DNA from: Adhaeribacter rhizoryzae
GTDB taxonomy: Bacteria; Bacteroidota; Bacteroidia; Cytophagales; Hymenobacteraceae
Assembly (NCBI RefSeq): GCF_008629685.1
Contig: NZ_VWSF01000016.1
Coordinates: 1 to 64,000, forward strand
Length of the DNA: 64,000 nt
Direction: 5' to 3'
The translations under genes were made by a program, and so were the position numbers. This document shows positions 3,191-5,893 of this stretch, one piece after another; within the stretch, counting starts at the first letter, position 1; each line of letters starts with the position of its first letter. The notes below the pieces were generated by a model that saw only the letters and a list, made by a program, of their open reading frames with translations, had not been told where the DNA came from and searched no databases.

Positions 3191-4078
3191 ATGCGCCAGT
3201 TACTGCCCGGATTATTTTTTGCCATGCTGTGGGCTTCGGCATCGGTAGCAACCAAAATAGGCATCCAGGCCGCCGACCCGCTCGTGCTGGCTTTGGTCCG
3301 GTTTTTAATAGCGGGCAGCCTTATGCTGGGTTATGCTTATTTTTTAAAACCCGGCGGCAATCCGATGCCCCGCGGCGTACAATGGCGTTATATAATGGTG
3401 TTTGCGCTGCTGAATACTACTATTTACCTGGGCGCTTTTGTACTGGCATTAAAACAGGTTTCGGCGGGCATCGGCAGTTTATCTACGGCTACTAATCCTT
3501 TGTTTATTACTTTACTTTCGGCGGTTTGGCTGCGACGCACCTTAAAGTGGTACGAAGGAGCCGGTATTTTGCTGGGTTTGGCGGGTGTAGCTTTGGCCAC
3601 TTACCCCTTACTGCAAACCAGCCACGCAACCCTTACCGGCTTAATAATATTGCTCACCGGAATGGTATCGGTTTCGGCAGCTACGGTTTATTATGCGCGC
3701 ATAACCTGGAATTTGCCGGCTTTGGTTATTAACGGTTGGCAGGTATTAATTGGCGGTATTTTTCTGCTGCCTTTTACTTTGTTTACTGCCAATATTAGCG
3801 CCACCCGCTGGAATGCGCAGTTTTGGGGCGGCGTGTTGTGGCTCATCGGGCCGGTTTCGATTGTGGCCTTACAACTCTGGTTTTTCCTGGTGCGGCAAGA
3901 CACGGTTCGGGCTTCGCTTTGGTTATTTCTTTGCCCTATATTTGGCTTTATTTATTCCTGGGCCTTACTGGGCGAGCCAATTACCGGTTATACATACGGC
4001 GGCACGGCTATGGTAATTGCCGGCTTGGTGCTGGCCCAACGCGAAAAACTCCGCCGGACTAAAATGGCGGAAGCCTGA
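3191..4078 (+). CDS. EamA/DMT-family membrane exporter
   Basis: This 295-residue, very hydrophobic protein begins MRQLLPGLFFAMLWASASVATKIG, the typical first helix of EamA/RhaT-type drug/metabolite transporters. About ten membrane helices fall in two similar halves. The second half starts near residue 150 with LTGLIILLTGMVSVSAATVYYAR, and the end of the first half has LRRTLKWYEGAGILLGLAGVAL, the usual EamA loop. The C-terminus is short and basic. The family exports small metabolites or amino acids, and the substrate cannot be deduced. It converges with the gene at 4114 across a 35-bp gap. Confidence 0.85.
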   Translation: MRQLLPGLFFAMLWASASVATKIGIQAADPLVLALVRFLIAGSLMLGYAYFLKPGGNPMPRGVQWRYIMVFALLNTTIYLGAFVLALKQVSAGIGSLSTATNPLFITLLSAVWLRRTLKWYEGAGILLGLAGVALATYPLLQTSHATLTGLIILLTGMVSVSAATVYYARITWNLPALVINGWQVLIGGIFLLPFTLFTANISATRWNAQFWGGVLWLIGPVSIVALQLWFFLVRQDTVRASLWLFLCPIFGFIYSWALLGEPITGYTYGGTAMVIAGLVLAQREKLRRTKMAEA

Positions 4079-4113: not shown

Positions 4114-5199
4114 TTAACTTCTCTTCTTTAAATTGCCAGGGCTTTGTTTCCGCTGCACATTAACCACAATGCGGGGCTCGCGGGTAAGAATTGTTTTCAG
4201 GTTTAAACGTACCAAATCGCCCATATTATTGCACCGCAAAAACTCCTCTGACTGGTGATGTTCAGCCAAATCTTTTTTTAGCTGTTCTATTTTTTCGGCC
4301 GTCGAAATGGTGTCGGTACGCATAATATCAATTAAATCTTTCAGGCGGTAGCGGGCCAGTTTTAAACGGTGGTACAGCAGGGTGCGTTCTTCGCTTAAAT
4401 ATTGCTGCACGGTTTGGGGCTTCAGCAGTTTTAATACCAGTTCTACTACCTTGTTGTTGTCTTTAAAAAACTGGGGCAGGTACATAACCTTGCGGCCTTC
4501 GTACGATTGCTGGTCGAAATCGATGGAACGCACCCGGTACTGCTCGTCTTCAAAATCAGGCGTAACATCTATTACGTAGTTATAAGAGCGCATATCGCCG
4601 AGGAGCCGGATAAAGCAGCGTTCGTTAAATTTTACAAACTCTTTGGCAATGCGTACCAGGTTGGTATTGGGACGGTGCAAATATTCTTTTATAAACACGT
4701 CGCCGGGTATGCCGGCAATGTGCTCTTCAATTAGGGTTTCGCCGTCTACGAGGTAATTAATGCGGCTCGGCGATAATATATGCTCCAGTTCCAGACCGTA
4801 AATGCGGGAAGCATCGGCCCGTTTCACGTAAAAATAATCGTAGTTGTCGTTAAGCTGGTTTTTAATTTGTACCCGGAACGGATTGGTATTGCCGAAAGTA
4901 CAATAATCAACGCGCGATACCTCTAAGTGCTCCATCACCGAAATATCGCCATCGGTTTTTAATAAGGCATAAATCATGGTTAAGCCCTGGTTTATTTCTT
5001 CGCGCAGGTGTTGTTCGTAAAGCACAATTTGCCACAGCGTATCTTGGCCTTGTTTATCGAAGTACGGAAAAGATTCGGTATAATGCGTAAGGTCTTCGTA
5101 GCCCAGGGGCAGCTTTCTTTCCCGGTCGTAGGTATGCAGGTATTTCCGCAGCTTTTTCGATACCGGGTAAACCAGCTTCTTTTTAGAAATAGTATGCAC
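4114..5199 (-). CDS. Uncharacterised protein with kinase-like (APH-type) motifs
   Basis: This 361-residue soluble protein matches no family I can name, but it carries spaced motifs of the protein-kinase/aminoglycoside-phosphotransferase fold. YFYVKR near 123-127 could supply the beta-3 lysine (K126). An acidic helix LELEH (about 136-140) would be helix C. EEHIAGIPGD (158-167) looks like the hinge. LLGDMRSYNYVID (199-211) matches the catalytic loop pattern GDxxxxN with D202 and N207. VRSIDFDQ (223-230) matches the metal-binding DFD/DFG position. The C-terminal third is helical and basic. No signal peptide or membrane helix is evident. It would be a cytosolic phosphotransferase of unknown substrate; this is inference from motif order, not a database match. 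Confidence 0.6.
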   Translation of the reverse strand: MHTISKKKLVYPVSKKLRKYLHTYDRERKLPLGYEDLTHYTESFPYFDKQGQDTLWQIVLYEQHLREEINQGLTMIYALLKTDGDISVMEHLEVSRVDYCTFGNTNPFRVQIKNQLNDNYDYFYVKRADASRIYGLELEHILSPSRINYLVDGETLIEEHIAGIPGDVFIKEYLHRPNTNLVRIAKEFVKFNERCFIRLLGDMRSYNYVIDVTPDFEDEQYRVRSIDFDQQSYEGRKVMYLPQFFKDNNKVVELVLKLLKPQTVQQYLSEERTLLYHRLKLARYRLKDLIDIMRTDTISTAEKIEQLKKDLAEHHQSEEFLRCNNMGDLVRLNLKTILTREPRIVVNVQRKQSPGNLKKRS

Positions 5200-5452
5200 A
5201 GGTTAAATAATTTAAGGTAAATCTAAGCAAAATAATGGCTTGGTTTTACGGCCGTTTACGTTTATCTTATAAGCGTATAACGTTACAAATAATAAGCATA
5301 CTATGCGCATTATTGGTTTTGTTATCGGGTTATTTCGCCAGAACCAGCCTGATGCATACGCCTGCTTCGTATTTAGTTCTGGCGCAGCTTCAATTACCCA
5401 CTTAATAAAAAGCAGTGATATTTTAATAACTATAACTTTTAAATAAAACAGC

Positions 5453-5893
5453 ATGAAGGTAATATTTATCCTGCCAATATTTTTATGGCTGTTAGTAGGT
5501 TGTGCCGAAAAAGCAGCGCCGGTGCCTAGCCTGGACGACCGCCTACAAGGAAACTGGAAAAGCACCTTTACCCGCAATTATTACGATGGCGCGGGTAACA
5601 AAATTTTTGAGGAGCAGGAAAACGATACTGTTACTTTTAAATTTACGAAAGGGTATGTTACCTTATCAAAGCAAAATGCAGCGCCGAAATCATCTAAGTA
5701 TGTGTTACACGAGATAGAAGATGAAAAATATATTCTTCTGGACACACCCGGCGGTTCGCAACACTTAATTACCTTTTTAACCGAAGAAAGAATGTACTGG
5801 CAAGTAGCTATTACGCCCGATAATTATATAGAAAACGGAGTTACTAAGCGGGCTGCTAAAATGGTTGTGGTAACGGCATTTATTAAGCAATAG
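5453..5893 (+). CDS. Small lipoprotein, lipocalin-like
   Basis: This 146-residue protein has a lipoprotein signal MKVIFILPIFLWLLVGC, with the lipidated cysteine at residue 17. The mature part opens with LDDRLQGNWKSTF, typical of lipocalin-like and META-type small beta-barrel lipoproteins of Bacteroidota, followed by beta-rich sequence (TVTFKFTKGYVTL, KYVLHEIEDEKYILL). It probably faces the periplasm from the inner or outer membrane. Ligand and role are unknown. A short inverted repeat CGCCAGAAC/GTTCTGGCG lies upstream at 5336-5384. It is a single-gene unit. Confidence 0.7.
   Translation: MKVIFILPIFLWLLVGCAEKAAPVPSLDDRLQGNWKSTFTRNYYDGAGNKIFEEQENDTVTFKFTKGYVTLSKQNAAPKSSKYVLHEIEDEKYILLDTPGGSQHLITFLTEERMYWQVAITPDNYIENGVTKRAAKMVVVTAFIKQ

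Follow-up and report, generated by a model that had tools for sequence, protein, structure and literature searches.

An unnamed family of Bacteroidota proteins with a predicted protein-kinase-like fold and an intact predicted active site

We propose that the product of one gene of a 64,000-nucleotide stretch of Adhaeribacter rhizoryzae DNA (hereafter the window) is very probably a phosphotransferase of the protein-kinase-like fold superfamily with its catalytic apparatus intact, and that it founds a Bacteroidota family which has no name and is usually present in single copy. Judged by the predicted structure and by the residues that relatives keep, this family combines a protein-kinase-like fold with a predicted active site that is intact; it has so far gone unrecognised. 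The kinase-fold order of residues (strand lysine, helix glutamate, catalytic aspartate and asparagine, metal aspartate) is present in the family. A first-pass annotation of the window had listed the gene as a candidate unrecognised atypical kinase, and both the predicted kinase fold and the conserved residues support that reading. Of the two outcomes that it named as refuting, a predicted fold unrelated to kinases and a lack of conservation of these residues in homologues, neither was found. The gene and its parts, all on the minus strand, are as follows.

4114-5199, minus strand: gene for the kinase-like protein, 361 amino acids, GTG start at 5199 and stop codon at 4114-4116 (open reading frame list and aligned relatives)
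4927-5199, minus strand: N-terminal segment, residues 1-91, with helices 15-23, 34-37, 63-82 and 86-91, strands 42-47 and 53-60, and invariant R26, W56 and Y77 (model and conservation)
4873-4902, minus strand: turn of residues 100-109 at the phosphate-loop position, reading C-x-x-G-N-[ST]-x-P-F-R, with no glycine-rich stretch (model and alignment)
4783-4824, minus strand: residues 126-139, with strand lysine K126, invariant D129, R132 and G135, and helix glutamates E137/E139 (model and conservation)
4702-4737, minus strand: hinge-like residues 155-166, with invariant E158, H160, G163 and P165 (model and conservation)
4579-4602, minus strand: predicted catalytic loop, residues 200-207, L-G-D-M-[RH]-x-x-N, with D202 and N207 (147 of 147 relatives; hhalign without significance)
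4510-4524, minus strand: predicted metal-binding motif, residues 226-230, I-D-F-D-Q, in which the glycine of DFG has become the invariant D229 (D227, F228, D229 and Q230 in 147 of 147 relatives)
4183-4464, minus strand: C-lobe helices, residues 246-339 (246-258, 261-281, 283-295, 301-315, 318-322 and 326-339; model), of which the core-only model described below, where the PI3K-like match disappeared, contains nothing beyond residue 262

The reading frame and the motifs quoted by the first-pass annotation (YVKR, LELEH, EEHIAGIPGD, GDMRSYN and SIDFDQ) are all present, residue for residue, and the kinase/APH-like order and spacing it saw in them fit the predicted fold. Conservation was assessed on a set that ran from 188 loci to 178 family proteins and then to 148 distinct, near-complete aligned sequences; removal of the window's own copy left 147 relatives, all different from each other over residues 84-339 and 42-84% identical to the query. 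K126, D202, N207 and D227, which had been picked out as the catalytic positions, are invariant in all 147, as are D129, R132, E158, G201, M203, F228, D229 and Q230. At position 137, Glu is found in 145 of the relatives and Asp in 2; at position 139 the counts are 146 and one. E159 is Glu in 144. Residue 204, an arginine in the query, is a histidine in 34 of the 147. Fully invariant positions number 35 of 361, many of them outside the motifs, and the probability that the four catalytic positions, picked blind, would all fall among these 35 is 7.5e-5, a figure that serves as a guide only since it treats positions as independent. On this sequence evidence, the named motifs are more than a chance resemblance. 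The glycine-rich loop had been called non-standard, and it is: the turn C100-x-x-G103-N104-[ST]-x-P107-F-R109, which sits between strands 92-100 and 108-114, has invariant C100, N104, P107 and R109, with G103 in 142 of the 147.

The AlphaFold2 model, made from a 64-row alignment of relatives of this single family only, is a two-lobed kinase fold with a pLDDT of 90.1 and a pTM of 0.86; stretches of three or more residues below pLDDT 50 are confined to residues 1-3 and 343-361. It begins with helices and two strands (1-91) and continues with strands 92-100, 108-114 and 119-127, the last carrying K126, and with helix 130-142, which carries E137 and E139. The middle part consists of strands 149-152 and 155-159, the second of which ends in E158/E159 and passes into a helix as a hinge would, and of two helices, 166-173 and the long 181-198. 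D202 and N207 lie in the loop that follows this long helix and leads through strands 208-214 and 219-225 to I-D-F-D-Q, after which seven helices, the first one short, extend to residue 339.

Fold prediction and structural search, suggested at the outset as a check, came out in favour of a kinase fold. With Foldseek, the full model gave a best E of 2.2e-5 and a probability of 1.00 against the PDB, and the best 50 rows listed are kinase-fold chains; the TM-scores were low (0.22-0.39 by query length). VIA-align returned 276 of 983 chains at Z>=8. The best 50 of these 276 entries are VPS34, PI4K, PI3K or PIKK (Z 13.3 to 11.4), led by VPS34 chain 7rsj (Z 13.3, rmsd 4.1, 269 residues aligned), and APH, HipA and other families missing from these 50 are not thereby excluded as nearest folds. 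Matches in a viral structure library were mainly to giant-virus kinases.

Two readings that would deny the protein a kinase activity can be weighed here. One holds that it is no kinase, with a motif order that arose by chance on some other fold; a significant sequence match to the kinase profiles tried is indeed absent, but the confident kinase-fold model together with the invariant predicted active site makes this highly improbable. The other holds that it is a pseudokinase, serving as a nucleotide-binding scaffold or sensor, and would account for conservation that reaches well past the active site to many invariant positions outside the motifs. Pseudokinases usually do not keep the Lys, Asp, Asn and metal-Asp positions, all of which are retained in 147 of 147 relatives, and we consider this second reading very unlikely.

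The family is widespread in Bacteroidota. A scan of genome contigs gave at least 582 confirmed relatives, and the best 80 of the 582 were kept; Pontibacter, Hymenobacter, Adhaeribacter, Rufibacter, Chitinophaga, Runella and Saprospiraceae are among their names, and all 80 carry Bacteroidota lineage labels except one from a metagenome-assembled genome labelled Fibrobacteres (L045), which may be mislabelled. Among 296 sampled genomes drawn across the phylum, the gene was matched in 80, that is, in 57 of the 73 from the window's own class (with its own genome and the fragments of genome G249 counted in) and in 23 of the 223 from other classes. A single match was found in 78 of these 80; the exceptions are G091, with a second copy that is 42% identical to the query, and G249, with its fragments. 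A profile search of 395 genomes matched 100 at E<=0.01, nearly all very strongly, and the family therefore has a sharp edge; weak matches were confined to the G249 fragments and, at 17 bits, to a frame in G031. Mean column identity is 61% over 64 members, and identity among relatives declines with kinship, a pattern that would suit a vertically kept gene. Overall, this is a Bacteroidota family that is usually single-copy.

The two exceptional matches deserve a short description. In G249, a genome that is 99% complete, L165 (G249:C1 around 3158142-3158410) consists of two short matches with stop codons only and is probably a copy being lost. In G031, L166 (G031:C20:990-1136) matches positions 169-218 of the family profile within a 429-aa frame, and is possibly a remote relative or a chance match.

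Within the window, agreement of the gene's start with those of relatives is rough. Ten of 15 aligned relatives, whose starts were chosen by a simple rule, begin within a few residues, and the other five (L040, L046, L055, L066 and L069) carry extensions of 2 to 13 residues; GTG or TTG starts are common at about the same place in Pontibacter relatives. A 121-aa frame (5212-5577, minus strand) ends 12 bases upstream on the same strand and overlaps a divergent 146-aa frame (5453-5893, plus strand). We do not count the 121-aa frame as a gene because of this overlap and because it has no counterpart next to the kinase-like genes of relatives; as it is the sole short co-directional neighbour, no toxin-antitoxin-like pair is kept either. 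The 146-aa frame is lipoprotein-like and has no NCBIfam match. Downstream lies a convergent, exporter-like gene (3191-4078, plus strand). As for a phage, plasmid or defence setting, the gene has no PADLOC match and no plasmid match, and it lies on no viral contig.

Sequence libraries supplied no name for the protein. The statement that it matches no known family holds in Pfam and NCBIfam, where nothing was found at E<=10, and in PADLOC, where the protein itself has no match; the best PHROGs match has an E of 0.23, and the best PDB sequence matches, optineurin and KmAtg10, lie at chance level (E about 0.08). Weak Pfam hits of single members, such as Hemerythrin (5 of 64 members, best E 2.2e-4), were put down to chance, since no such hit is found for the window protein itself. 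The optineurin and zinc-finger PDB sequence matches were rejected in like manner. SelO and CotH, which we take to be PF02696 and PF08757, gave no match for the window protein within the Pfam search at E<=10, nor did the eukaryotic-type protein kinases (PF00069). The portions of PMC9758233 and PMC6282198 available to us contain no name for the family, and a nameless family cannot be shown to be absent from print. Within a superfamily that is itself well known, the kinase-like family is thus one that the libraries searched do not yet contain. That so conserved and widespread a Bacteroidota family should be without a Pfam or NCBIfam match marks a real gap in the bacterial kinome.

Profile comparison, also proposed by the first-pass annotation, gave a more guarded answer. 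We compared a 149-row family alignment by hhalign with APH (15 sequences), HipA (5), Pkinase (11), fructosamine kinase (3) and PI3K (5 typed), with reversed profiles as decoys. Forward P values ranged from 0.04 to 0.85 and those of the reversed decoys from 0.03 to 0.36, so that none of the five kinase families was matched significantly, and for APH (P 0.11 versus 0.061 reversed) and HipA (0.85 versus 0.36) the suggested comparison failed to yield a match better than the decoys. Values were 0.04 versus 0.032 for fructosamine kinase, with the alignment outside the catalytic loop, and 0.19 versus 0.27 for PI3K. Four of the five forward comparisons (APH, HipA, Pkinase and PI3K; not fructosamine kinase) aligned at the columns of the catalytic loop. 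Among the five reversed decoys, that of PI3K also came near these columns. The APH and PI3K alignments show the right register at this loop, and the Pkinase column numbers agree with the APH-Pkinase and Pkinase-PI3K controls. As controls, APH-Pkinase gave P 7.5e-7, APH-fructosamine kinase 6.3e-9 and Pkinase-fructosamine kinase 5.3e-7. HipA found none of the other kinase families, and hhalign therefore misses true but remote kinase kin.

The most substantial alternative is that the protein is a bacterial outlier of the PI3K/PI4K/PIKK branch (PF00454; VPS34), a lipid or protein kinase with that branch's own motifs and the same C-lobe helices; we consider this possible but doubtful. It has the best matches of the full model in its favour, since the best 50 VIA-align entries all come from the branch. 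In addition, K126-x-x-D129-x-x-R132 can be mapped to K-x-G-D-D-L-R-Q-D, G-D-M-[RH]-x-x-N to G-D-R-H-x-x-N, and I-D-F-D to I-D-F-G, with D129 and R132 invariant and with the histidine at residue 204 of 34 relatives giving G-D-M-H-x-x-N. These motifs were mapped on a confirmed VPS34 sequence, and hhalign pairs the catalytic loop of the family with that of the PI3K profile and, at a probability of 0.2%, with that of VPS34 alone. PI3Ks, too, are without a standard glycine-rich loop.

Comparison with the PI3K branch shows both likeness and difference. The family shares K-x-x-D-x-x-R after the strand lysine, the G-D-x-[RH]-x-x-N loop and I-D-F with PI3Ks, but it has D-F-D where they have D-F-G; of K-x-G-D-D-L-R-Q-D it keeps the Lys, the first Asp and the Arg and not the rest, and L-R-Q-D is not retained. 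The spacing from catalytic to metal Asp is 25 residues, compared with 18 in VPS34, and the family protein stands alone at 361 aa. Against the PI3K reading, the window protein has no PF00454 match at E<=10, and PF00454 is not among the 25 of 33 Pfam families listed for 64 members; a search of its own genome at E<=1 matched another locus and not the kinase-like gene. The hhalign result for PI3K is hardly better than its reversed decoy, and G-D-x-H-x-x-N and I-D-F-D also occur in APH-type kinases.

A core-only model (residues 84-262; pLDDT 79.3, weaker than the full model) bears on the same question. The 50 best rows of each search with it are again kinase-fold chains, at lower Z (best 8.4), and include OspG, NleH, Bud32, IRE1, MPS1, Rio2, lanthipeptide-synthetase and other protein-kinase chains. 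No PI3K is among these best 50 rows; either the PI3K likeness comes from the terminal parts, or the lower quality of this model hid it. With the core-only model and hhalign giving no backing, PI3K as a settled assignment was rejected. OspG and NleH (Z 8.4), Bud32 (8.0) and Rio2 (7.1) are among the closest to the core-only model, but identity over the rows of that search is 6-12%, and the family has its own N- and C-terminal helical parts.

Other kinase families resemble this one in part. For the APH/choline-kinase type (PF01636), hhalign pairs the family's catalytic loop and I-D-F-D with those of APH, and we read G-D-x-[RH]-x-x-N and I-D-F-D as APH-like motifs; the window protein has no PF01636 profile match, and the APH match of its own genome is another gene (at G000:C53). 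The HipA proteins (PF07804) are bacterial kinase-fold proteins, and the HipA alignment falls on the catalytic-loop columns; the window protein has no PF07804 profile match, and HipA_C has none in its own genome at E<=1e-8. Fructosamine kinase (PF03881) likewise has no profile match for the window protein and none in its own genome at E<=1e-8. Eukaryotic-type protein kinases carry G-x-G-x-x-G, H-R-D, D-F-G and A-P-E, whereas the family has C-x-x-G-N-[ST]-x-P-F-R, L-G-D, D-F-D and no A-P-E. The motifs of the family are part PI3K-like and part APH-like, and may help to relate those branches of the kinase superfamily.

Another small protein of the same genome was seen during these searches. It has 265 aa (L111:1273-2070, minus strand; G000:C50) and a weak PF00454 match (E 0.004, below cut-off), and frames of similar length match in five relatives. 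In sequence it resembles a small HipA-type kinase.

In the phosphotransferase that we propose, the predicted fold and the invariant residues suggest ATP binding, metal binding and phosphate transfer. MgATP would lie between the two lobes, with the C100-R109 turn taking the place of the glycine loop. K126 would position the phosphates and would itself be held by a glutamate of the helix that follows, E139 (or E137). D202 would act as the catalytic base, while N207 and D227, probably with D229, would hold the metal ions. As the segment that follows I-D-F-D-Q is short, with no APE end such as eukaryotic-type protein kinases have, a lipid or small molecule is a more likely substrate than a broad range of proteins.

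Alternatively, the protein could have a kinase fold and yet carry out a different transfer (of AMP, as in SelO, or glutamylation, as in SidJ), or could modify proteins, instead of being a phosphate-transferring metabolite kinase. Atypical kinase-fold families with altered motifs do use other chemistry, the turn 100-109 and D229 are non-standard, and a role in marking proteins would agree with the place of a divergent second copy in a clpP-clpP-[copy]-clpX cluster. Against this, the Lys, catalytic Asp, Asn and metal Asp stand in standard order, the flipped-nucleotide signature of SelO is, as far as we can judge, missing from the family, and the Clp setting concerns the second copy alone, in 2 genomes. 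We therefore regard such chemistry as unlikely and retain the phosphotransferase reading.

Gene order offers a hint of a metabolic role. Comparison of the 113 loci that span 7000 bases or more showed no neighbour common to the whole family, and no conserved operon was seen in the window's own class. Directly upstream and on the same strand, bshA was found in 20 loci (tblastn with one BshA query), which correspond to 17 distinct genomes after removal of three duplicates. The pair is present in 17 of the 21 other-class genomes examined, these being the subset with flanks of 28 other-class genomes with a strong profile match, and in 7 of the 9 families among these 21; it is missing from the other four (L149, L153, L184 and L186). 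The two genes lie about 0 to 90 bases apart, the exact distance varying with the choice of start. One upstream BshA protein scored 547.6 bits with TIGR03999 (cut-off 273.7), which confirms the name by profile for one genome. At the remaining loci, own class included, no BshA match was found at E<=1e-20; most of these flanks are 1.5 to 6 kb long, and a bshA farther away is possible. The window itself contains no bshA.

BshC (PF10079) was found in 291 of the 296 sampled genomes, including all 80 kinase carriers. As BshC is near-universal, co-occurrence is uninformative and was dropped as an argument, which leaves gene order to carry the thiol link; and since BshC is found with or without the kinase, bacillithiol synthesis does not in general require the kinase. 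To our knowledge, no kinase step belongs to the bacillithiol pathway. A paper whose accessible portions do not mention a kinase in this context (PMC6282198) reports that Bacteroidetes have genes for bacillithiol and N-methyl-bacillithiol and that one Polaribacter strain contains the thiol. In other classes, the pairing with bshA is a weak pointer to a role in the metabolism of low-molecular-weight thiols (bacillithiol), or in the control of that metabolism. A fuller version would have this as an ancient kinase family of its own across Bacteroidota, with an active site between the PI3K and APH styles, that phosphorylates bacillithiol, a precursor or a conjugate, or that controls BshA by phosphorylation; we offer it tentatively, as rather unlikely in its entirety. 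The substrate, once known, could add a missing step to Bacteroidota metabolism, perhaps in thiol metabolism.

Finally, some other neighbours recur only within a genus or among close relatives. These include a LytTR-like pair in Pontibacter and, in some Chitinophagaceae, an aldolase gene and a cysteine-synthase-like gene beside the kinase-like gene. L168 and L170 have a flavodoxin gene whose end is 4-7 bases upstream of the kinase-like gene, and an RnfB-like gene downstream. Flavodoxin was confirmed by profile for L170 only (TIGR01752); the LytTR-like, aldolase, cysteine-synthase-like and RnfB-like assignments were read off the sequence. The clpP-clpP-copy-clpX order was seen in two species of one genus (G091 and G446; L164:6019-7011, minus strand, L242 and L243), and a search at E<=1e-95 of 60 genomes of the taxonomic family to which this genus belongs found the divergent second copy in 2.
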